Assembly (NCBI GenBank): GCA_020354025.1
Contig: CP070638.1
Coordinates: 455,523-519,522 of the forward strand
Source: Fidelibacterota bacterium
GTDB taxonomy: Bacteria; Fidelibacterota; Marinisomatia; SCGC-AAA003-L08; TS1B11
DNA length: 64,000 bases
Direction: 5' to 3'
The position numbers and the translations under genes were made by a program. Under the pieces are notes generated by a model that saw only the letters and a list, made by a program, of their open reading frames with translations, had not been told where the DNA came from and did not search any database. Shown here piece by piece: positions 18,197 through 58,381 of this stretch (position 1 is the stretch's first letter; each line of letters starts with the position of its first letter).

Positions 18197-18240
18197 CTAC
18201 TTCAGCAGCAGCCCCGCTTCCTGCGGGATTACACTGACGT
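18197..18240 (-). other. Hairpin plus vestigial sorting-tail end after the true stop
   Basis: Just downstream of the TAA stop of the giant protein, the minus strand reads ACGTCAGTGTAAT, then a hairpin of the type CCCGC-loop-GCGGG (plus strand 18212-18227), then CTGCTGCTGAAGTAG, which encodes LLLK-stop, the standard end of a sorting tail. The same order occurs after the 34836-37622 gene. Confidence 0.7.
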
Positions 18241-21200
18241 TTACTTTAATAGCAGCATCTTCACCGTCTTGGTATACTCAGGGATTACCAGCCGGGCGAA
18301 GTAGATGCCTGATGCAAGGTCCCGGCCTGCTTGGTCACGACCAGCCCACAGCACCTGATGATACCCCGCACCTAGCTGTTCCTGCCTTAATCTAGTGACT
18401 TCGCGGCCCAGGATATCGTAGACCACCAGGTAGACCTTGGTGGCCTTTGGCAGGTCAAAACGGATAGTTGTTATAGGATTAAACGGATTCGGATAGTTCT
18501 GGTGGAGGGCAAATTCCCTGGGCATCAGGTTCTCTACCTCAATCTGTAGCTGCCCTGTCTCAAAGGGACCGCCATCCATGCCCGTTAACGTGTAGTCCAG
18601 GATAAGCGGCTGGAGCTCGTGGACCTTGGGCTTGAGGCGGAGGGTAGCCACTGGCAGATCATCAACCTTGCCTGGCTCCAGCGTCCCCAGGCCAGCCAGG
18701 GCAAAGAGGGCCTGGCTGCTGTCCGGGCCGACCTGGGTAAGCAGCGGCGTAGCCTTAAAGAACTGCCGCAGGTAGCCTCCATCGGCCACCCCCATTAATT
18801 GAAGACCGCCTGAACCGTACGAGATAAATCCGTCCACCATCATCAGGTTTTCGGCCTCAGCCACAAACATATCGACGGTGATAAAACCATCCCACTGGTA
18901 CAGGTCCTCAGGTATCCGCTGGACCAGCCTGATGGTAGTATTCTCCGAGATCACCTTAGCCAATACGGAGATAGACCTGGCAAAACCGTTGTGCGCAAAG
19001 GACCAGTTCCACATCATGGCGAAGACGGTCAGGTCCTCGAAATCGATCACGCCGTCTGGTTGAGGTAGCAGGTCCGGCACAATCCCAGCAGCAGGACCGA
19101 TCTCATGGGTCAAGTCCTGCGGTACAGAATTCCAGGCTGCGGCAAATTCGGCTAGGTCATCGGTGGAGATAGCCAGATTACCAGTGTAGTCGCCTGGATA
19201 GTAGATGACGGTGAGACCAGTGAGGGTGTCGCCAACACCGGGGTCGTTATCGGTAGGGACGACCTTCAGTTGTACATCCGTATGCTTACCGGTCAGATCG
19301 GCAAAGGCGAGCCAATCAATGGTGCCAGTGTAACCGGCTGGGGCGATCTTGCCGCGGGCATAATCCAGGTGGCCTTCCTGCCACGATGCCCCCTGGTCAA
19401 GGGAGTAGGACGCGGACAGGGTCAGGCTGTCACCTTCAGCATCAGTCAGCGTATAGTGAATCGAAACCCGGGATATTATGGTATCATTTATTGCTCCTGT
19501 CACCACCGTGGGGGGATCGTTGTTATCCAGGTGAAAATCTTGCGTTTCGATGGCAAGCCCGGGATTGGCATCGTGCGGCGTGATACGGAATCTTATGGCC
19601 GTTTTGTCCACTCCTCCCAGATCGATACCCGATTGCCAAATGAACGATCCGCTATATTCTGCAGGCAACAGATTTGTAGTTTTTCCTTCAATTGACGCAA
19701 GTGCCCAATTCTGCCCGGAATCTTCTGAATAATCGCCTACAATGCTCAAGGTATCGTTCTCATCGTCTGCAAGCGTATATGCAATCTCTATATCCCCGGA
19801 CTGCTCTGTGTCAAAGTTGGATATTGCGGTGGCAAAGGGCACACACAGCTGGTCAATCAGTATGGTGATGGTATCCATCGCTCCTTGATCGTTGTCATAA
19901 GGAATGATGCGGAAATAGTAATATCCCATTCCTTGCGGTTGATCAGGAGCAGAGTTCCAGATCAGGCTACCTGCATAAGCCGATGAGGTAATGCCTGACG
20001 TGTTGCCAGTGATAGTGGCCGGATGCCAGACTGCTGATTTGGGCGCGAGATACTCGCATTGCACCCTCAATGTATCATTTTCCGCATCGGACAGTTGATA
20101 GCCGACAGCGATATCTCCCCGATATTCTCCTTCAGCCACCGGTGTCAGGACAGCAGTCGGTATCCGGTTGTTGTCCAGATGGAAGGCTGGGGTTGTGTAA
20201 GCCCGCCCCTCACCAGTCTGGTCATAGGGTGTGATCTTGAAACGAACCGTGGTCAGATCTATATCGGGCAGGTTGACGTAGGAGTCCCAGAGGAGGGTGC
20301 CCTGATATTTGTCGGGGCCTAAGCCCGTGGTATCGCCAATGATAGTGGCTAGGTGCCAGGTAGCACCGTCGTCGTCGGAGTACTCGCAGAGGAGACTAGT
20401 TGTATTGCTATCAGGGTTTGAGATGATGTAGGGGATGGTGAGGGAGTCGGAGTGCTCGGCCTGAGTGTCCAGTGTGAAGCGGGCGGAGAAAATGTCTTGG
20501 TTCAGGAGAACTGCAAGTGAATTTTCCATGTTGTTTACTGCTGCGATATCGAAATCACCATCCTGATCCCAATCACCTACGGTAAAAGAGCTAATATTCT
20601 CGTATAGATGTAAAGTTGACTCCCAAGCGAAAGCGCCGTTTCCATTGTTGCAGAAAAAGGAAATAGTATCCGCATTCGCATAAGCGACGACTAAATCAAC
20701 AGCTCCATCACCATCCCAGTCACCATAAGACATGGCAACAGGTTCATTTCCCACATCAATAGCATCAATAGGTGCTGCTGATGGAAATATCCCATCCCCA
20801 TTATTCCTTAAAAACGAAAGCGCGCTTACCGCACCCCCGGTAAGAGCTGTCAAATCAAGGTCGCCGTCACTATCAGCATCAACAGGGGCTAGAAAAATAG
20901 GCTTTGGCCCTAAAACTGCAGAAGAGTATGATTGGAGGAAATTCCCCTCACCATCGTTAAAGATTATTGACACCGAATCATCATAGTTCCCTACAGCTAA
21001 ATCCTTATCCCCATCAATATCCCAATCACCCGAAGTAATAGACCAGTGATCACTGCCTACATAAAGCAATAAGGTTTCGTAGAAAGTACCTGATCCTTCG
21101 TTCGTTAAAATTGAAATCAAGCTGGCTCCAGTAGATTGAGCAACAGCTAGATCAAGATCACCATCGCCTTCCCAATCACCGACAGTAATCGATGTGGGGC

Positions 21201-30480: not shown

Positions 30481-32700
30481 ATGTCTACTATTAATTCAGC
30501 CAATAAGACGCTGCCTCTAACCGCAGGTGTGGCACCCAGGTCGGGAAACCTGGAGCTATTCTACCTAGTTGAGCTTACCCGAAAGCGAATCAAGTTCCTG
30601 AGCCGATGGGAGAAACCCCTTTCTGAGGAGGTTCTGCGCTGGATTCGGCGTTACGGGCTGGTGGTTGATATCATCCCGCGCCGAACGCTGCTGAGGAGGC
30701 GTATTTACGAGACCGTTTTCAGTACCTCTTCCCGGTACGTGGACTACTACCACCGCAAATTCTACAATACACTGCTGTACAGAAATCCAGATAGCCAGCG
30801 TTGTGAGGGCAGGATGTTCGGGTATCCCTCCTGCTGCGTGGAGCAATTCATCCGGCGGCATTACCTGCCGAATGGTTTAAGAAGGGAGGACCAGGAAATC
30901 CTGTTCCACTGGGCTTGCCCGGGATGCCGTGCTACACCTGATCTACTCCCCTATTATCGTACGGTCCATCAGCAGGTGCAGGAGTGGTACCAGAGGGAGA
31001 TAGGACCCTTGCAGCCGACGGATTTGAAACCTGCACAACGGCTGGAACGGAAGTTGGCGCTGGCCGCCACCACTGTGCTATTGCTATCAACCGTATCTCT
31101 GACCGGGCAAGCCACTGGCACTTCCCATTTTCTACCCATCCCCGAAGATATTGACAGCGATGGCCTGAGCTATGCTGAGGAATTCTACCTTGGTACTGAC
31201 TTCTCCCAACAGTCAACCTATCCCGGTGGACTAATCGATGGGGAGTACTGGGCACAGTTCTTCAAAGCCGTGATCGATACTTTGCCTACCGAGCCCCAAT
31301 CAGACAGGCCTTACAAGATTGAGAACCTGTTCAGGGGGCTCGAGTACTGCTCTAAGTGCAGCACTCTGGTGAACATGGGCTATGTAACCCTGGTGAATCC
31401 TATCCGCAACCTACAGCTGGATATCCCTTTCGTCGGTCTTCATTATCTAGAACACGGCTGCTTCTCGTATCAGGGTGACCTGCATACCGGCCGGATTGCC
31501 ATCGATACCTTGAAAAGGATTCTTTACCCATACGATATCGAGCATTTGCTGGCGGTTGCCGGTGACACCGATGGTGACGGCCTGACAGATGTCGAGGAAG
31601 ACAGTCTGAACCTGGATCCTACTGTTGCGGATACCGACGCTGACGGCGTCCCAGATGGGGCCCAGGTGGCGGAGCAGTTGATCCGTCTGCTGCCGAAGCT
31701 GAAAGAGGATATTGACAATATTCACAGCACGCTTTCATTTCATAAGACATGGGGACTGGAAAGTTGTCAAGTGTGCGGAGCCGTCCATAATATGGGATAC
31801 GTGGAGTTCCTGAACCCGGAGAATGGCCGTACCTGTCAAATCCATTTCAACGGCCTGCATGCCCTGGCTCATGGCAGTTTTGCCTATGACGGTACGGCAA
31901 ATCCTGACCAGCGAGTTAATGCCGTAGACTTATACCGAGCCGTGAAAAACCACGTGCTGTTCATCGGTGATGATACTGATGATGACGGTCTGACTGATAT
32001 TGAGGAAGCCTACTTTGGCTATGATGCCGACGAGATTGATACCGACGGTAACAGTGAGAGTGACGGCACGGAATTGGCGCTCAGCCTGGCGGACAAGCTT
32101 GAGCGTCTGCCAACCAATCCGATCGCAGATGGCCCCTATGTCAACCATGGGCACATGTTTGGTGTATACAATTGCCCGGTATGTGGAGAAGCCGTCAATA
32201 TGGGATCCATGGAAGTGTTCAATCCCTCCCAGGGGGCGGATTCTCTCAGCATCCCCTACTACGTCTACCATTTCTTACAGAAAGGCAGCTTTGCGTATGA
32301 GGGCCGAGTCGATACGGCTGAGATCGAGGCGTGGGATGAAGCTCGCATTGATCCGATCAAACTGGCCGCTTACCTAGATTACCAAGTGGGGGTCCGGCCT
32401 GATCCGATGGGACTGGCGCCTGACGGTTATATCCTCCACCAGAACTTCCCCAATCCGTTCAATCCAGTGTCCACCATCCGATATGAACTTCCACAGGCCG
32501 ACAACGTTTCATTGATAGTCTATGACATACTTGGGAGGGAAGTGGCAAGACTGGTTGAAGGCTACCTGGAGCCGGGGTATCATCAAATCCAGTGGGATGG
32601 CCGTGATCGGGATGGGGGAGAAGTCCCCACTGGAGTCTACATCGCCCGGTTAGTGACGACGGAGTATAGCAAGTCCATCAAGATGGTGTTATTAAAGTAA
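30481..32700 (+). CDS. Three-module CxxC/HxxxH secreted protein with FGYPSCC-type N-terminal domain and sorting tail
   Basis: A 739-residue mosaic. Residues 1-185 have no signal peptide and contain GRMFGYPSCCVEQFIRR and WACPGCRATPDLLPYY, reminiscent of DUF483-type proteins as I recall. Residues about 192-215 (RKLALAATTVLLLSTVSLTG) look like an internal signal or anchor. Then follow three related modules: Cys290/Cys293 with His321/His325; Cys429/Cys432 with His460/His464; Cys565/Cys568 with His597 and Lys601 in place of the second His. Each has CxxC, NMG, an NP step, the His pair, then GSFAYxG. Calcium-type repeats (DTDGDGLTDVEE, DTDDDGLTDIEE) link them. The sorting tail fills the last 90 residues. 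The modules suggest metal binding; function unknown. Confidence 0.85.
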   Translation: MSTINSANKTLPLTAGVAPRSGNLELFYLVELTRKRIKFLSRWEKPLSEEVLRWIRRYGLVVDIIPRRTLLRRRIYETVFSTSSRYVDYYHRKFYNTLLYRNPDSQRCEGRMFGYPSCCVEQFIRRHYLPNGLRREDQEILFHWACPGCRATPDLLPYYRTVHQQVQEWYQREIGPLQPTDLKPAQRLERKLALAATTVLLLSTVSLTGQATGTSHFLPIPEDIDSDGLSYAEEFYLGTDFSQQSTYPGGLIDGEYWAQFFKAVIDTLPTEPQSDRPYKIENLFRGLEYCSKCSTLVNMGYVTLVNPIRNLQLDIPFVGLHYLEHGCFSYQGDLHTGRIAIDTLKRILYPYDIEHLLAVAGDTDGDGLTDVEEDSLNLDPTVADTDADGVPDGAQVAEQLIRLLPKLKEDIDNIHSTLSFHKTWGLESCQVCGAVHNMGYVEFLNPENGRTCQIHFNGLHALAHGSFAYDGTANPDQRVNAVDLYRAVKNHVLFIGDDTDDDGLTDIEEAYFGYDADEIDTDGNSESDGTELALSLADKLERLPTNPIADGPYVNHGHMFGVYNCPVCGEAVNMGSMEVFNPSQGADSLSIPYYVYHFLQKGSFAYEGRVDTAEIEAWDEARIDPIKLAAYLDYQVGVRPDPMGLAPDGYILHQNFPNPFNPVSTIRYELPQADNVSLIVYDILGREVARLVEGYLEPGYHQIQWDGRDRDGGEVPTGVYIARLVTTEYSKSIKMVLLK

Positions 32701-32707
32701 GCGTCAG
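32445..32707 (+). repeat. Sorting-tail DNA, copy A (shares 72 identical bases with 37558-37629)
   Basis: 32636-32707 is identical to 37558-37629 over 72 bases, running through the TAA stop and eight further bases (GCGTCAG). Upstream positions diverge at once, so the identity is confined to the extreme 3' end of both genes. Confidence 0.9.
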
Positions 32708-33096
32708 GGTAATCCCGTCCTTGATCCCGCCAAAGGCGGGGATTAAGCGCGACGTCCGGTTTAGAAGCATGTTACACACCGACGTACCAAAAGCTAAACG
32801 TATAATAAGATGTAGCTTCCTGAGATTTTCCCTAATAAGCTTGATACTTTACATAGTGTAATGTACCTTGCGTTGGAGGTCTTCCCTCGAAGGCTTCCAT
32901 AGTTTATTGATAGATCGTTGTGCCACTGAGGCACTGGTAGTTATCTCGCCTGATTAATCAGGATCCGCATCTGTAATCGTCTCGACATGACAAGTGCCTG
33001 AGGGTACGGCCACTCGTTCCTGCAAGTTCATAGCTGAGGATTGGTGAAAATATTCTGTGAAAGTGCAACACACCAACCGACTTTGTAGATAACACC
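32701..33096. other. Intergenic region with hairpin
   Basis: 396 bases. 32724-32743 is a hairpin (ATCCCGCC-AAA-GGCGGGGAT) without a T run, part of the CCCGC/GCGGG family. The rest is A/T-richer and shows no gene; it should hold the promoter of the NTR-like gene at 33097. Confidence 0.5.
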
Positions 33097-33822
33097 ATGT
33101 GTGCTAAGGCCTATTTCACCCCAGTCGTATTCTTCTTAGTTCTTATAAAATTGGAGTATCTCTCAGCTTGTAGCTGCCTCGGCCCCTATCCTCCAGACGT
33201 TGAATTCGAACGCGTGGACGTTGTCTTTTCTGGAGTGGTTGAGGCTATCTCTGCCGAAGATTATTTTTCTGAAGTGACCTTTAAGGTATTAGAGTCGTGG
33301 AAGGGAATAACTGGTAAACAGGTTACCGTTCTTACATCTTGGCCTGATGGCTGCGGATATCCTTTCGAAAAAGATTCCTGCTACCTGGTTTATGCCCATT
33401 ACTCCGAGCCTAGTTGGATTCCATATTATTGCGATGGGTGCCCAGTCACTGGTATTTGCCACAGGACCGGATCGATTACCGGCGTTACTGAAGATTTGCA
33501 GTATCTTAACTCACTGGATCTCGATGAATGGTTTTCTGTACCAAAGGAGTACTGGTTATTTCAAAATTACCCCAATCCTTTCAACCCGGTCTCCACCATC
33601 CGATATGACCTGCCGCAAGCCACAGAGGTAACGCTGGTCGTTTATGACATATTAGGCCGGGAAGTGGCAAGGCTGGTGGACGGCTTAATTGAGCCTGGCT
33701 ACCATCAAGCCCAATGGAACGGCAGGAATCAGCTGGGCCATAGTGTCCCCTCCGGCATCTACATCGCCCGGCTGGTAACAACTGGGTACAGTAAGGCGAT
33801 CAAGATGGTGCTGCTAAAATAA
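33097..33822 (+). CDS. Small secreted NTR/TIMP-like protein with sorting tail
   Basis: A 241-residue exported protein. After the signal peptide the mature end is CSCLGPYPPDVEFERVDVVF, then FKVLESWKGITGKQVTVLTS, DGCGYPF, and CYLVYAHY. A leading Cys-x-Cys, a beta barrel with VVFSGVV, and the later cysteines follow the netrin/TIMP-like (NTR) pattern; bacterial proteins of this sort are known but of unclear role. About residue 150 onward is the sorting tail (NPFNPVSTIRYDLPQ ... KMVLLK). Cysteines at DGCGY, DSCYL, YYCDGC and GICH probably form disulfides. No ribosome site is obvious before ATG 33097. Confidence 0.75.
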   Translation: MCAKAYFTPVVFFLVLIKLEYLSACSCLGPYPPDVEFERVDVVFSGVVEAISAEDYFSEVTFKVLESWKGITGKQVTVLTSWPDGCGYPFEKDSCYLVYAHYSEPSWIPYYCDGCPVTGICHRTGSITGVTEDLQYLNSLDLDEWFSVPKEYWLFQNYPNPFNPVSTIRYDLPQATEVTLVVYDILGREVARLVDGLIEPGYHQAQWNGRNQLGHSVPSGIYIARLVTTGYSKAIKMVLLK

Positions 33823-33882
33823 GCATTCAAATAATCCCGCAGAGTGAAGGAGTGGAGCTAAGTCAGGGGGAAGGAAAGAAAG

Positions 33883-34734
33883 ATGACTACTAGACGCATG
33901 AAGTCAGGCTTTATTCTTTTTTTAGCAGTTATATGGTCAATAGTTCTGCCATCCCTGCTTCAAGGCCAGGAATCGCCAGATTCACTGGTCATTTATCGCA
34001 ATTCTTTTGAAACGTCAGAGGATACTATCGGATGGGTTGGTCTTCATTCAAATATGCTGGTTGAAGATCCTGCTCCCGGGCAGGGATCGCACTCCCTGTT
34101 GATTGGTGGAGGTTGTATCCAGCCAGCGGCCTGGATAGACGTTCCTTGTTCGGCAGGCGATGTCATGTATCGATTATCATTCTGGGGGAATACCGGGAAT
34201 GTAGAAATGGATGGGGGTTGGATCATCCTCGGTCCGGCTTACCGAGGAATTTGGGATCAAGACAATTTTGGAATCTACGCAAATTCCTCGGATTGGACTT
34301 TCTACCAGGCGGAGAAAGATCTCCACCTGGGAGAGGTTGATTCCCTGCGGATACAGATAATGGTCGGTGGGATAAGATACGATGACGTGCAGATCGATGG
34401 CCTGGAGGTGGTGGCCTACCCTTTACTTGGATCACAGAGCGTTACAGAGGTTCCGACCGCATTTTGCCTGGGGCCAGCTTTCCCCAATCCATTCAATCCT
34501 GCTACTACTATCCATTTTAACCTGCCCATCAGCACGAATGTACGTCTGATGGTCTACGATCTGTTAGGCCGGGAAGTAGTAAGGTTAGTTGAAGGCTATA
34601 TGGAGCCTGGATACCATCAGGTACGGTGGGATGGTAGAAATGCAAGTGGTGGGGAGCTAACCTCCGGTATCTACGTCGCCCGCTTAATTACGCCGGAGTA
34701 CAGTACATCTATTAAAATGGTGCTGATGAAATAG
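33883..34734 (+). CDS. Small secreted carbohydrate-binding-like protein with sorting tail
   Basis: A 283-residue exported protein with a clear ribosome site (GGAAGGAAAG before ATG 33883) and a signal peptide (ILFLAVIWSIVLPSLLQGQ). Residues about 30-185 form a jelly-roll-like beta sandwich: IYRNSFETSEDTIGWVG, GSHSLLIGGG, YRLSFWGNTGNVEMDGGWII, LRIQIMVGGIRYDDVQIDGL. This layout is that of concanavalin/galactose-binding-like domains in surface proteins. The last 90 residues are the sorting tail ending KMVLMK. It follows the NTR-like gene by 60 bases. The ligand is not known. Confidence 0.78.
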   Translation: MTTRRMKSGFILFLAVIWSIVLPSLLQGQESPDSLVIYRNSFETSEDTIGWVGLHSNMLVEDPAPGQGSHSLLIGGGCIQPAAWIDVPCSAGDVMYRLSFWGNTGNVEMDGGWIILGPAYRGIWDQDNFGIYANSSDWTFYQAEKDLHLGEVDSLRIQIMVGGIRYDDVQIDGLEVVAYPLLGSQSVTEVPTAFCLGPAFPNPFNPATTIHFNLPISTNVRLMVYDLLGREVVRLVEGYMEPGYHQVRWDGRNASGGELTSGIYVARLITPEYSTSIKMVLMK

Positions 34735-34757
34735 GAAGTGGCTTTCAATTAGGCATC
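34732..34757 (+). repeat. Downstream flank shared with 37664-37689
   Basis: From the stop codon, TAGGAAGTGGCTTTCAAT and the following nAGGCnTCA are shared with 37664-37689, which lies beyond the true stop of the next gene. This marks duplicated 3' flanking DNA. Confidence 0.85.
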
Positions 34758-34835
34758 AGCGAAATATTGGAGATGCAGAATGTGCCTCATAGGTCTAGGC
34801 ACAAATAGTAGAAATCTTATCGACGAGACATAGTT

Positions 34836-37622
34836 ATGCTGAGCCGTATCTCTTGTATGTCTAAAGCCCTAGTTTGTCTCTTTTTCGCGGGTCAACTATC
34901 GGCTCAGGTAATCGGAACTGACTCCCTGGCCCTGGTAGCCCTCTACGACAGCACGAATGGGGCTAGCTGGAGCGATACCTGGGATCTGAATACTCCGGTA
35001 AGCACCTGGTACGGTGTGACGGTGGACAGCGAACGGGTGGTTATCCTGGACTTACACCGAAACAATTTGAATGGCGTAATCCCAACCGAGATCGGCGATT
35101 TAACCGCTTTACACTGGCTCTCGCTCGATCGTAATTCCATCGTCGGAACTATTCCACAAGAGATTGGAAACCTTACCAGCTTGGCCCATCTCAGACTTAA
35201 CGAAAACCAGTTGACTGGAGCCATTCCCACGGAGATTGGTAACTTGTTAAGTTTGAGAACTTTGCGACTTGAATATAATCAGCTCACGGGGTCAATCCCC
35301 GATGAGATCGGTAACCTGATCAACATCTGGGGTTCCCTTGATCTTTCTCATAACCAACTTAGCGGTCCCATTCCCACAACCCTCGGCAACTTGACCGATA
35401 TGGAGCTGCTGTATCTGAATGATAATCAACTGAGTGGCCCAATTCCCCCTGAGATTTGCAGCCTGCCTCGTTTGTACCATTTGGATTTGGCCCATAACCA
35501 ACTCAGCGGTCCTATCCCGACCGAAATCGGTAACCTTCCCTGGTTAATGGGACTGGTCCTACGCAACAACCAGATCACAGGGACCATACCGTCCGAAATC
35601 GGCAATCTTTCCATGCTAAGTCGTCTGGACCTCGATAGCAATCAGGTGACCGGACCTTTGCCTCCAGAGATCGTGAATTGCACTGAACTAAACGGCTTAT
35701 TCCTAAAAAGCAACCTTTTTTCCGGCCCTCTCCCCTCAGAAATCTTCCAGCTTACCAAGCTGAGCCATCTGAATCTGAGCGACAATCAATTCGCGGGAAT
35801 AATTCCGACGGATATTGGCTCACTTCCCGGTCTTTTTATGCTGTATCTAAACAACAACCAACTCACGGGATCAATCCCGGATGAGATAAGTAACTTGTCT
35901 AATCTACATTGGCTGGACTTAAGCAATAATCCGCTAACTGGCACCATTCCAGGCGATTGGTCTCAACTGACCGGATTGACCAGGCTGAATCTGAGCAACA
36001 ACCAACTGACCGGCGCCGTACCCCCAGGGATAACCGGTGCCCATGGTTTTCACTGGATATATATCCATATGAACCAATTGGAGGACCTTCCCGATCTCAG
36101 CCCATTAAATAGTTTGACCAAACTCCATATTCAGGATAACCGCTTCACCTTCGAAGACATCGAAATGAACATGGGAGTTGCGAGTGAGGAATTTGTTTAT
36201 ACTCCGCAGGATAGCGTGGGCTTGGAGCAGTTTCTTTATGTCCATGATGGGATGAAAGACTTCACTCATAAGGTATCCGTGGGTGGCACTGCCAACCAGT
36301 ATCAGTGGATGAAAGACGACGGTGATATTCCAGGTGCCATCGAACCCAGATATAGCATTCCAGCTGTGGCCTTAAGCGACACCGGTGCATATGTCTGCCG
36401 GATCACAAACGCCATTGCCACTGAGCTGACCCTCCATAGCCGACCCATGCATCTGGCTGTAATGGAACCTTCCATGGAGTTGGATTCCCTGACCCTCGCT
36501 CATCTCTACCACTCGACCGGCGGACCCGACTGGTCCAATAATGCCAACTGGCTCACCGGACCGATTGCCAGCTGGGAAAGTGTGGATATATCGGATGGTC
36601 GAATATATAACCTCGACCTTGCCAATCGAAATCTATCTGGTCCGCTGCCGGCAACGATTGGTAACCTGACCTGGATGACCTACTTAAATTTCTCCGAGAA
36701 CCAATTGACGGGCGAAATCCCGGCTGCCATCACCAATCTTACGGGAATGGCTGAATTGAACCTCGGCCACAACCAGTTGACCGGGCCAATCCCGGTTGGT
36801 CTGGGTGAGCTGACCGAAACACTCACGGTGATCCATCTTGAGGATAACCGACTCTGCGGATCAGTTCCCTCTGACATCGCAAATATGGATAGCCTGTTCT
36901 GGCTTGATGTCTCGGACAATGACTTGACTGACTTCCCGGATCTCAGTTCGGTCCCACAGTTACATTATCTCTACCTGGAGAACAACCGGTTCACGTTCGA
37001 GGACATCGAGCCAAACATCGGGGTACCTCTTGAAGAGTTTATCTATCACCCCCAGGACAGCGTTGGCATTGAGCGTGATACGACCGTCACCGCAGGAGAT
37101 ACCCTGGATATTGTCATCTCAATAGGTGGGACAGCCAACCAGTATCAGTGGATGCTTAACGGTGGAGACATATCAGGTGCCAACGATAGTACCTATTCCT
37201 TCACTGCCAGGGGTGACATTGATGAAGGCGCCTATATCTGCCGGGCCACGAATACGATTGCCACGGACCTAATCATTTACAGCCGACCCGTGCATCTCAC
37301 CGTCGAAGGCGAGTTGGCTATCAGTGATGAGGCCAGCTGGCCCGATGCCTATGCCCTGCACCCAGCCTATCCCAATCCCTTCAATCCGGTCTCCACCGTC
37401 CGGTATGACCTGCCACAAGCCAGTACTGTCTCACTTGCCGTCCATGACATCCTGGGCCGGGAGGTAGTAAGGTTAGTTGAAAGCTATATGGAGCCGGGGT
37501 ACCATTATGCCCAATGGAACGGCAGGGATCAGCTTGGTCGCAGTGTTCCTTCCGGCATCTACATCGCCCGGTTAGTGACGACGGAGTATAGCAAGTCCAT
37601 CAAGATGGTGTTATTAAAGTAA
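34836..37622 (+). CDS. Leucine-rich-repeat/Ig-like surface protein with sorting tail
   Basis: A 928-residue exported protein. A signal peptide (to about residue 24, LFFAGQLSAQ) is followed by a plant-type LRR N-cap (DSLALVALYDSTNGASW, WYGV), about fifteen repeats of the form LxxLxLxxNQLTGxIPxEIGNL (24-residue period), then an Ig-like domain (VGGTANQYQWMKDDGDIPGA, AYVCRITNAIATEL), a second N-cap (DSLTLAHLYHSTGGPDW) with about five more repeats, a second Ig-like domain, and the sorting tail. The two halves are an internal duplication. Such proteins mediate surface adhesion or binding of proteins. The second Ig unit keeps the same Trp and Cys as the first. Confidence 0.92.
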   Translation: MLSRISCMSKALVCLFFAGQLSAQVIGTDSLALVALYDSTNGASWSDTWDLNTPVSTWYGVTVDSERVVILDLHRNNLNGVIPTEIGDLTALHWLSLDRNSIVGTIPQEIGNLTSLAHLRLNENQLTGAIPTEIGNLLSLRTLRLEYNQLTGSIPDEIGNLINIWGSLDLSHNQLSGPIPTTLGNLTDMELLYLNDNQLSGPIPPEICSLPRLYHLDLAHNQLSGPIPTEIGNLPWLMGLVLRNNQITGTIPSEIGNLSMLSRLDLDSNQVTGPLPPEIVNCTELNGLFLKSNLFSGPLPSEIFQLTKLSHLNLSDNQFAGIIPTDIGSLPGLFMLYLNNNQLTGSIPDEISNLSNLHWLDLSNNPLTGTIPGDWSQLTGLTRLNLSNNQLTGAVPPGITGAHGFHWIYIHMNQLEDLPDLSPLNSLTKLHIQDNRFTFEDIEMNMGVASEEFVYTPQDSVGLEQFLYVHDGMKDFTHKVSVGGTANQYQWMKDDGDIPGAIEPRYSIPAVALSDTGAYVCRITNAIATELTLHSRPMHLAVMEPSMELDSLTLAHLYHSTGGPDWSNNANWLTGPIASWESVDISDGRIYNLDLANRNLSGPLPATIGNLTWMTYLNFSENQLTGEIPAAITNLTGMAELNLGHNQLTGPIPVGLGELTETLTVIHLEDNRLCGSVPSDIANMDSLFWLDVSDNDLTDFPDLSSVPQLHYLYLENNRFTFEDIEPNIGVPLEEFIYHPQDSVGIERDTTVTAGDTLDIVISIGGTANQYQWMLNGGDISGANDSTYSFTARGDIDEGAYICRATNTIATDLIIYSRPVHLTVEGELAISDEASWPDAYALHPAYPNPFNPVSTVRYDLPQASTVSLAVHDILGREVVRLVESYMEPGYHYAQWNGRDQLGRSVPSGIYIARLVTTEYSKSIKMVLLK

Positions 37623-37629
37623 GCGTCAG
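37558..37629 (+). repeat. Sorting-tail DNA, copy B (72-base identity with copy A)
   Basis: Identical to 32636-32707. The DNA just upstream, from about 37510 to 37557, is instead closest to 33705-33757, and before that (37457-37490) closest to 34565-34600, so the tail is a mosaic of three neighbours. Confidence 0.85.
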
Positions 37630-37689
37630 AGTGTTCCCGCAGGATGCGGGGGTGCTGCTAAAGTAGGAAGTGGCTTTCAATGAGGCGTC
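37630..37689 (+). other. Hairpin and second, vestigial tail end downstream of the LRR gene
   Basis: After the true TAA stop (37620-37622) comes a hairpin, CCCGCA-GGA-TGCGGG at 37636-37650, then GTGCTGCTAAAGTAG at 37652-37666 (VLLK-stop), then a flank identical to that after the 33883-34734 gene. It appears to be the leftover last codons of another tail gene. Confidence 0.8.
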
Positions 37690-37765
37690 ACCTAAACCTT
37701 GTAAACGTGAAATATGCCTCTTATTATTTTAGCCCTCGATATCCAAGAAGCTCCAAAGGTGTAAA

Positions 37766-38761
37766 GTGAAGATAATAGCCCTCCTTGCTTGTTTAATCCT
37801 CTGGACCTGTGTCAGTAGCCCGACGCAGAGCGAGCCGGGCACTTGGCAGCTGGTCTGGGAATCACCCGGAGATGGTAGCTACCGATCTATCCATTTTGTC
37901 GACAGCAACCACGGGTGGGCTGTGGGTGATTCAGGGACTATCATCCATACGGAGAATGGCGGGCGATCATGGACCCAACAGCAGAGCGGGTCCTCCAGCA
38001 ATTTGAAGGTGGTGTACTTCATCAATCCTCAAGTGGGTTGGGTTGCCGGGGGAGATAACACGATCCTACATACAAAGGACGACGGTCAATCCTGGCACTC
38101 CCGCGCGCCGGCAGGAGATTCGTCCAGAATCTTTACTGACCTTTTTTTCGCCGATGAGGTGACTGGCTGGGTGGTCCGCCAGCTTGGGGAGCTCCTGTAT
38201 ACAGAAGATGGGGGAACCACCTGGGGTGTACAGCGGAGCTGGGAACAGGGAGGGTCGGCGCTGATATCATTTGTGGATGACCAGGTAGGCTACATTATGC
38301 CCCGGGCCGATTCCATGCTGTACAAGACCAGTAACGGCGGGCAGGACTGGATCCCAATCTCATCGCAGCATTTTGCACGGGCGAAAGGCCTGTATTTTAC
38401 CGATGAGCAGTACGGCTGGATTCCGACCAGTACCGCACCAAGCTGAATGATGGTAAACCGTGCCGACGTGTTCGGTACAGTAGATGGAGGGATCACCTGG
38501 ACCCATTTGGATACACTCCCCTCGGAGGAAGTTATTACCGGGCTTCATTTTATCGACCGGCACACGGGCTGGATGGCTGGGAACAGTTTCGGGATTCCCA
38601 TCGGATCACACATCTTCCACACAATTGATGGTGGGCACACTTGGGACTGTCAATTTGAAACGGAAGAGTACATCAGTTTCCAGGATATATTCTTTACAGA
38701 CGCTGAGCATGGCTGGGTATTGGGCCGGAGAGGCGAGATTTATCATTACAGTGTCCCATGA
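37766..38761 (+). pseudogene. BNR/YCF48-type beta-propeller protein gene with an in-frame TGA
   Basis: Codons run in a single frame from ATG 37766 to TGA 38759-38761, interrupted only by TGA at 38444-38446. Repeats on both sides are of the YCF48 type: VDSNHGWAVGDSGTIIHTEN, INPQVGWVAGGDNTILHTKD, and after the stop GTVDGGITWTHL, IDRHTGWMAGNS, FTDAEHGWVLGRRGEIYHY. Together they make about 330 residues, a normal size for this fold. The second half has no ribosome site. A signal peptide or lipoprotein signal (LLACLILWTCVSS) is present. Either a nonsense mutation or a sequence error; other genes here use TGA as an ordinary stop, which argues against recoding. Confidence 0.75.
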
Positions 38762-38985
38762 CTCTTACTTTACTACCAATGATGCTGCTGAAGTAGGAGA
38801 AAGCTAAGAAGAAAATCGTTCTGCAGGATACGGGCAGGACACGGACTTCGATTTCCCGGCGGGACCAGGAGCCACCGACACCGGCCCCGCCGTTGGCGGG
38901 ACTACCCCGCACTCTGCGGGATTCCTTCCGACCCATAGCATACCGGTTGTAATTTTCTTAAGATGGCTTCTCGGTATTATCCGGC
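38762..38985. repeat. Two adjacent hairpins and a tail-end-like scrap before recG
   Basis: 38779-38796 reads ATGATGCTGCTGAAGTAG (MMLLK-stop), like a sorting-tail end but in another frame from the propeller gene. 38886-38900 (CCCGCC-GTT-GGCGGG) and 38906-38920 (CCCGCA-CTC-TGCGGG) are two small perfect hairpins side by side, of the same family as those after the sorting-tail genes. Confidence 0.6.
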
Positions 38986-57400: not shown

Positions 57401-57641
57401 TGGCCGTCCGAATATTGTCGATGCCGTGAAGAACGCCGAAATAGATCTGATTATAAATACTCCCAAGGGGAAATTCAGTGAAGTAGACGACTCGTACATC
57501 CGAAAGGAAGCGATCAAACACAAGATCTTATATTTTACGACAACTACGGCAGCACTCGCTGCAACTAAAGGTATTGCTGCCAGGAGGGATGGGAAAGCAA
57601 GCGTTAAATCATTGCAGAACTATCACGCGGAGATTAGGTGA
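54441..57641 (+). CDS. carB: Carbamoyl-phosphate synthase large subunit (copy 2, A/T-rich)
   Basis: A complete 1066-residue CarB, 100 bases downstream of copy 1 and in the same direction. All ATP-grasp motifs are intact ([67 protein letters not shown]), as is the MGS-like end (FKILATEGTKRYLAENG). It is not a recent copy: many positions differ, and it lacks QSLQELFG, ending instead KSLQNYHAEIR. Third codon positions are markedly more A/T than in copy 1, a sign of transfer from another genome. Two carB genes can serve arginine and pyrimidine synthesis separately, which is a reasonable guess here. Confidence 0.96.
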   Translation: MPERDDIKRVLIIGSGPIIIGQACEFDYSGTQACKALRSLGYEIILVNSNPATIMTDPDMADVTYIEPLTVQALTDIIEKERPDALLPNLGGQTGLNLSSQLHKSGILDKYGVTVIGVNVDAIERGEDRTAFKNTMNRLGIEMPQSEAVDSIEEAEKVAEHLGYPVVIRPASTMGGTGGGLVYNVEELRLIAARGLSASMVNQVLIEESVLGWEELELEVVRDAKNQMITVCFIENVDAMGVHTGDSYCTAPMLTINQELQEKLQKYSYDIVEAIEVIGGTNIQFAHDPKTGRVVVIEINPRTSRSSALASKATGFPIALVSSLLAGGLTMDEIPYWREGTLEKYTPSGDYVVVKFARWAFEKFRGVEDKLGTQMRAVGEVMSIGKTYKEALHKAIRSLEIKRHGLGFARDFNNRSLEELMTMLSSPSSERQFIMYEALRKGAGIQDLYDKTHIKPWFIEQMKELVEIEEEVLKYKDQKLPDELLVRAKKDGFADKYLSQLLNISQREIRERRISLGITEAWEPVPVSGVENAAYYYSTYNAPDRVEVSDRKKIMVLGGGPNRIGQGIEFDYCCVHAAFAIREAGYESIMVNCNPETVSTDYDTSDKLYFEPLTVEDVLSIYHKEKPEGVIVQFGGQTPLNIANQLAESRVKILGTSPDTIDLAEDRDRFRQIMRKLDIPQPDSGMASTLQEALNIAEKIGYPLMVRPSYVLGGRGMEIVLDEEMLAHYIAAAVDVSPERPILIDKFLEYAVEAEADAIADGTDAFVPAIMEHIEYAGVHSGDSACVIPPVDIPQKHIDTIYEYTRKIAIELNVIGLMNIQYAIAYDKVYILEANPRASRTVPLVSKVCNVQMAKIATQIMLGKKLSDFDLKKREIKHFGVKEAVFPFNMFPEVDPVLGPEMRSTGEVLGMADSFRLAFYKAQNATQLPLPLEGTVLITIADRDKQGILEPAKRFAELGFKILATEGTKRYLAENGIDSTFIKKVKDGRPNIVDAVKNAEIDLIINTPKGKFSEVDDSYIRKEAIKHKILYFTTTTAALAATKGIAARRDGKASVKSLQNYHAEIR

Positions 57642-57656
57642 AAAGGCGGAACGGGG
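57636..57656 (+). repeat. 21-bp direct repeat, copy 1 (end of carB copy 2)
   Basis: The bases from AGGTGAAAAG to ACGGGG, spanning the carB stop, recur exactly at 58361-58381. The two flank the RDD gene. Confidence 0.9.
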
Positions 57657-58330: not shown

Positions 58331-58366
58331 AAGTCCCTGCACCAATATCATGCCGAGATCAGGTGA
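58331..58366 (+). pseudogene. carB: 3'-terminal remnant of a carB gene (copy-2 type end)
   Basis: Codons read KSLHQYHAEIR-stop, compared with KSLQNYHAEIR-stop at the end of carB copy 2. Nine of eleven residues agree, but the remnant uses G/C-rich synonyms (CTG, GCC, GAG, ATC, AGG). The bases after the stop are the same as after copy 2. Confidence 0.75.
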
Positions 58367-58381
58367 AAAGGCGGAACGGGG
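58361..58381 (+). repeat. 21-bp direct repeat, copy 2
   Basis: Identical to 57636-57656; spans the stop codon of the carB remnant. Confidence 0.9.

Follow-up and report, generated by a model that had tools for sequence, protein, structure and literature searches.

A short repeat appears to be bound to the ends of secretion-signal genes in this genome. We consider it probable that this REP-like repeat supplies the T9SS sorting signal that it interrupts with a new end and, in doing so, recreates its own insertion site. In the mechanism that we propose, a unit of 43/44 nt would enter T9SS type A tail genes at one fixed point, opening with its own LLLK-stop, so that translation would stop within it and the secretion signal would regain its C-terminus. 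The original last codons would be left behind the hairpin as an untranslated vestige, and since the inserted unit would offer the same kind of site anew, further units could stack. Copies would spread mainly via ectopic gene conversion among similar tail ends, after one or few hairpin insertions.

The window (the whole stretch of DNA analysed, 64,000 nucleotides) covers positions 455523-519522 of a 3.40-Mb single-contig genome, and the host bacteria are known here from assembled metagenomes only. The closest named match to the DNA pattern of the unit is the chromosome of a Candidatus Neomarinimicrobiota MAG (CP070787.1), this phylum being the same as Fidelibacterota. All five window genes tested carry TIGR04183, the T9SS type A sorting domain, at their C-terminus, with 29.2-33.6 bits against a curated cut-off of 23, and the genome as a whole has 79 tail matches. 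While the host tails match TIGR04183, the repeat is a feature of these gene ends and not of the whole domain family. SprA is a translocon protein of the T9SS, and SprA_N scored above its own cut-off in all 11 genomes of the family (the present genome and ten relatives). DNA was read directly in the stretches around tail ends, and comparisons were made between paralogues or between species. The unit copies are related to each other, and counts of units are not counts of independent events.

In the gene at 34836-37622 (plus strand), the live end V L L K stop, GTG TTA TTA AAG TAA (GTGTTATTAAAGTAA, 37608-37622), is followed by the spacer GCGTCAGAGTGTT (37623-37635) and the hairpin CCCGCA-GGA-TGCGGG (CCCGCAGGATGCGGG, 37636-37650), which has six pairs, a 3-nt loop and a folding energy of -10.6 kcal/mol (z = -3.3). 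The whole unit occupies 37608-37651, a single G separating the hairpin from a vestige, GTG CTG CTA AAG TAG (GTGCTGCTAAAGTAG, 37652-37666), that we read as the stranded original gene end. The 3' flank of this original end (37667-37690) is common to the empty ends at window 34734 and genome 1,390,940(-), and the next window gene begins far downstream, at 37766. On the minus strand, the gene ending at 18241 has the live end L L L K stop, CTG CTA TTA AAG TAA (CTGCTATTAAAGTAA, 18241-18255), the spacer ACGTCAGTGTAAT (18228-18240), the hairpin CCCGC-AGGAA-GCGGG (CCCGCAGGAAGCGGG, 18213-18227), again a single G, and the vestige CTG CTG CTG AAG TAG (CTGCTGCTGAAGTAG, 18197-18211), the whole unit running from 18255 to 18212. 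At both sites the start of the live end and the start of the vestige are exactly 44 bases apart. The initial annotation had described a (G/A)CGTCAG segment, a hairpin and a stranded LLK-stop after these two stops, and both sites do contain them. A covariance model built from ten units matched genome positions 493118-493195 (the 37622 site) and 473712-473789 (the 18241 site) with E-values, for one genome, of 7.5e-20 and 4.7e-17, both sequences being in the model seed; sites outside the seed scored as strongly (1e-19 at 684711, 1e-17 in relatives). The arrangement of live end, hairpin and vestige at the two sites is far beyond chance.

Two more occupied ends, at 32700 and 33822, lie in the window beyond those first noted. 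The former (32686-32741, plus strand, 49.4 bits) consists of GTGTTATTAAAGTAA, GCGTCAGGGTAAT and a hairpin nested in a broken outer hairpin, with no vestige recognisable behind the nested hairpin. The latter (33808-33866, plus strand, 53 bits, E = 1.6e-9) is decayed and comprises GTGCTGCTAAAATAA, a spacer, a broken hairpin and a decayed vestige that is still at the 44-nt spacing. An empty tail end, GTGCTGATGAAATAG, stands at 34720-34734 (plus strand), followed by the type of flank found behind the vestige at 37667.

Genome-wide, the 43/44-nt unit is a composite of the last codons LLLK plus stop, a spacer of ~12 nt (consensus CGTCAGAGTAG / GCGTCAGAGTAGT) and a GC hairpin of 6 bp, with a loop of 3 nt, that starts ~13 nt past the stop. 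The hairpin covaries in the 53 units compared, pair 6 being C-G in 26 units, A-T in 20 and T-A in 2, and paired in 48 of 53 units against 23.5 in shuffles; this covariation implies that pairing matters in RNA or DNA, or that hairpins are replaced as wholes. The period is constant, 44 or 43 nt, in units of the present genome and nine relatives. The insertion point is fixed as well, lying after a Met codon and ahead of the final four (AAG ATG ^ GTG CTG CTG AAG TAG), which gives substance to the earlier suggestion of a preferred site. Listing gene ends and orphan tail ends throughout the genome, with L-form and S-form search patterns defined by hand, yielded three states. The empty state reads AAGATG-GTGCTGCTGAAGTAGGGG. 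In the L-form, AAGATG is followed by a unit made of CTGTTATTAAAGTAA, GCGTCAGAGTAGT, CCCGCn-nnn-nGCGGG and G, and then by GTGCTGCTGAAGTAGGGG. In the S-form the hairpin is alone, AAGATG being followed by CTTTTGTCCCGC-n-GCGGGG and then GTGCTGCTGAAGTAG, without restored last codons. L-units are stacked at 1,508,137 (five, four of them nearly identical) and, as two divergent units each, at 1,078,449 and 2,902,298(-), with no passenger between stacked copies. Hairpins nested within the loops of other hairpins were found at 328142, 971959, 1078449 and 2843844(-).

The codons on the two sides of the hairpin differ in a consistent direction. Among 53 units from the present genome and relatives, the end ahead of the hairpin opens with C and the one behind it with G in 26 units versus 1 (p = 4e-7), and codon polarity runs in the same direction at positions 4, 6 and 7. 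The codons of the vestige are those of unoccupied ends (GTG CTG CTG AAG TAG), while the live end has the codons of the unit itself (CTG TTA TTA AAG TAA); vestiges resemble empty ends and the live ends of occupied genes do not. The polarity and the likeness of vestiges to empty ends indicate that what follows the hairpin is the gene's original end, the live codons having arrived with the unit. Polarity is imperfect, GTG and not CTG opening the live end at 2 of the 3 clean window hairpins. On the basis of the polarity and the restriction of the unit to one family, we infer that most of the variation is explained by gain and not by loss. Deletion between the repeated ends is the other possible source of empty sites, with 683247 as a possible case.

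Matched tail ends define the inserted piece. By coding sequence, the nearest tail to that of the 34836-37622 gene is the empty end at 1,390,940(-). Their upstream tail coding regions match at ~78% and the downstream match continues through GGCTTTCAATGAGGCGT, with a single clean 44-nt gap; the passengers are unrelated, and only there does the homology stop. Of ten pairs of tail ends with the same flank, with and without the unit, chosen from BLAST hits and by eye, nine can be aligned starting at the vestige (z from 6.9 to 21.6); the pair 680015/3068489 does not align from the vestige onward, its BLAST match lying at the same offset but farther downstream. The flank of the vestige at 37664 had been called identical to that of the 33883-34734 gene. 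The relationship is real and the first ~20 nt are almost identical, but overall identity is 75-77% over 57-73 nt. These comparisons suggest two processes, one in which a tail with a short 3' flank would come to stand behind various passengers, and one in which the 44-nt unit would be gained or lost within tails. Behind tail ends, the 3' flanks form a few recurring families (e.g. GAGGCGTGAACTAAACCTTGGAAACGCGAAATATGTCTC; window 34735-34765, 37667-37697 and several genome sites), from which it follows that the duplicated tail module reaches beyond the stop codon. Occupied tails do not cluster by tail similarity, the nearest neighbour being of the same state in 12 of 33.

The L-form lies within intact tail genes at 12 of 19 sites (one unrelated pattern match of the 20 listed was set aside), and the S-form at none of 13, all of its sites being in dead tail fragments. 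This contrast is significant on the listed 20 (Fisher p = 5e-4), with the proviso that the S-form copies perhaps stem from few events and are not independent. In the RgpB protein of P. gingivalis, loss of the last two residues, but not of one, blocks secretion and the protein is retained, while C-terminal extensions of the sorting tail are tolerated (PMC11285876). Because the L-form supplies LLLK and a stop, and the S-form is absent from live genes, we infer that only end-rebuilding insertions survive, survival in live genes thus depending on the restored last codons.

The model matched the unit in 10 of the 11 family genomes; the 49 genomes from other families of the order and class, counted regardless of their tail-end content, gave no match. 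In three congeneric species (2,843,833(-) in the present genome, L238 in G001 and L260 in G002), the unit is borne by a gene family with a common fibronectin-like passenger end, the hairpin sequence differing from one species to the next. Its presence on a related gene in three species suggests that some insertions are old, although shuffling of the fibronectin-like passenger domain is possible. The passenger end of this gene is 88-94% identical across the three species and the attached tail 53-74%, as if the tails had been exchanged or were evolving much faster than the passenger end. The best candidate for an interspecies pair of orthologous sites, one empty and one occupied, was 2,440,418(-), without a hairpin in G000, against an array at G002 1,850,472, with 70% DNA identity over the gene end; their 3' flanks fail to align, and the pair was set aside. 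For the two window passengers, relatives were ~40-56% identical and patchy, and none provided a usable orthologous site.

As to the route of spread, gene conversion or ectopic recombination seems the likelier course, with direct transposition as the alternative. Gene conversion is favoured because the spacer is unseen away from tail ends. A search for a free element found 23 sites with up to two mismatches to the spacer plus hairpin start, of which 20 follow a tail end; the other three are 1,376,070 (minus strand), with the vestige alone, and two chance look-alikes. An occupied end is homologous to an empty end on both sides of the unit, which makes copying between tail ends possible. Two tail coding regions also contain hairpins of the same GC type, oppositely oriented (1,078,398-1,078,414 and 1,757,871-1,757,887), and their frames stay open; the genes end at 1,078,460 and, with the hairpin reversed, at 1,757,824(-). 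From such hairpins elsewhere, including those inside the two tails, the hairpin as such has the look of a REP-like sequence that is, or once was, mobile. A RAYT-driven REP was considered and rejected, the sole Y1_Tnp gene of the genome having unrelated palindromes around it and no CCCGC/GCGGG hairpin within 1.5 kb. Either side of this gene (L158, genome 2,661,643-2,661,987, minus strand) carries the palindrome pair CAGCCATTCATGGCTGGG and CGCCGTTCACGGCG.

It is possible, but rather unlikely, that the unit is a tail-homing element, that is, a non-coding repeat whose dedicated insertion mechanism would recognise the 3' end of the secretion-signal coding region. Such an element would rebuild the end with its own codons and stop, recreate its target and stack; if it existed, it would be a parasite of gene ends that does no harm because it brings along the end of the gene it enters.

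A conserved regulatory 3' UTR, with the hairpin as a functional RNA element (mRNA stability or translation) inherited with the tail genes, vestige included, is improbable. The unit is spread across the family, and it is borne in three species by a gene that shares its passenger domain, but only about one in three close tail genes carries it, and others with the same flank lack it. The initial annotation had named a fixed 3' UTR without rearrangement as the finding that would speak against insertion; the same downstream flank with and without the unit shows otherwise. Conservation of the hairpin with covariation, ~13 nt past the stop, would suit an RNA role. The frequency of the unit in dead tail fragments argues the other way, as does the lack of a terminator signature or an Rfam match; the search for a known RNA family or intrinsic terminator returned neither, and 37300-37900 contains no G+C-rich hairpin with a T run of the rho-independent type. 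It is possible that the hairpin gained a function after insertion.

Still less credit can be given to tandem duplication, by which replication slippage would have doubled a gene end with its own hairpin, the second copy then decaying. A duplicate should repeat the spacer and hairpin, whereas the last copy runs directly into the flank of empty ends, and the two copies differ in a fixed direction. The 44-nt direct repeats do fit such a process, and the near-identical neighbouring units at 1,508,137 resemble recent slippage. Tandem duplication accounts for some array lengths and not for the vestige.

Finally, insertion of passenger, tail and hairpin as one block before the last codons of an older tail, as first proposed, is highly improbable: the local junction is the same, and unrelated passengers before similar tails and flanks do imply that tails or passengers were exchanged at some time, but homology to empty ends runs on through the 5' tail, interrupted by just 44 nt, no passenger separates stacked units, and paralogous empty sites differ by 44 nt only. 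The initial annotation had merged tail/passenger exchange with the turnover of the 44-nt unit. Its view that the insertion lies immediately ahead of an older tail's final codons, leaving them stranded, agrees with the polarity and the matched flanks, and the checks it had suggested gave a unit found genome-wide and in relatives, and empty sites, in the form of paralogous tail ends that differ by 44 nt at matched flanks.

Taking the unit, then, as a REP-like repeat bound to tails, its nearest kind are the GTAG/CGTC REPs (PMC3733652), which share with it a short hairpin, many copies, a location mostly downstream of genes, nesting and clustering, and perhaps a GTAG-like foot. The same paper reports that GTAG REP ends often supply a TAG stop to flanking ORFs. 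Unlike REPs, the present unit incorporates the final codons of a single protein domain and has one fixed site in that domain. GTAG-REP hairpins have a stem of 5-13 bp, a loop of 2-20 and many copies, limits within which the 6-bp stem, 3-nt loop and tens of copies of the unit fall; of the unpaired GTAG at the stem foot of GTAG REPs, the exact form is present in only 14 of 53 units (ATAG in 8), although GTAG is the commonest tetranucleotide before the stem T. A RAYT gene flanked by the same hairpins, as GTAG REPs have, was not found in the genome, and we do not claim formal membership of that family. In CGTC REPs the stem is 8-9 bp long, opens with A/T pairs and has CGTC at its foot; the CGTC of the unit is 8 nt from a stem of 6 bp that is all G-C at its base.

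MIRUs (PMC12548453) are nearest in logic, being short stackable units that enter a gene boundary and keep it working. They do so at start codons, and their internal ORF is coupled to the gene that follows, whereas the present unit precedes the last codons of the upstream gene and restores its C-terminus. For insertion within an ORF, the nearest are the Rickettsia palindromic elements, palindromic repeats inside ORFs that they do not break (PMC10969869); they are ~150 bp long and add an internal peptide to unrelated genes, while the present unit is 44 nt long and ends the protein, in one domain. RPEs are in-frame and read through, but the unit brings a stop, and only the separate hairpins inside two tails are read through. 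In the portions of these three sources at hand (PMC3733652, PMC12548453, PMC10969869), no REP, MIRU or RPE is said to bring the final codons of a host domain, and a literature search, most subscription papers being beyond its reach, returned nothing relevant on palindromic repeats tied to T9SS tails. REP-like hairpins are usually regarded as passive repeats by gene ends; here they are fused to sorting-signal codons. The unit suggests how a short repeat may colonise coding ends without harm, and it provides a countable marker of the exchange of sorting tails among unrelated secreted proteins.

Orphan tail ends had been said to come always after a hairpin, which does not hold: many in the genome have none, including TGCTGCTGAAGTAGG at 38783-38797 (plus strand), 22 bases past the stop of the 38447-38761 ORF. 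Near it, hairpins of the CCCGC/GCGGG type lie on the minus strand at 38886-38920. Orphan 40-60 nt pieces of the tail 3' end, passenger-free, stand between genes at many places genome-wide (e.g. 1,226,077(-) and 2,104,825(+)); some are repeats of one another, and they may come from gene decay or be a dispersed repeat. A further palindrome, of the CCTGAGCTTGTCGAAGG type, was found at or directly after tail ends (genome 967,461(-) and 969,237(-)), so that tail ends may attract more than one kind of palindromic repeat. The window also holds a direct repeat of 51 nt (82%) that contains AGGTGAAAAGGCGGAACGGGG, at 57606-57656 and 58331-58381, the two copies being offset by 725 bases.
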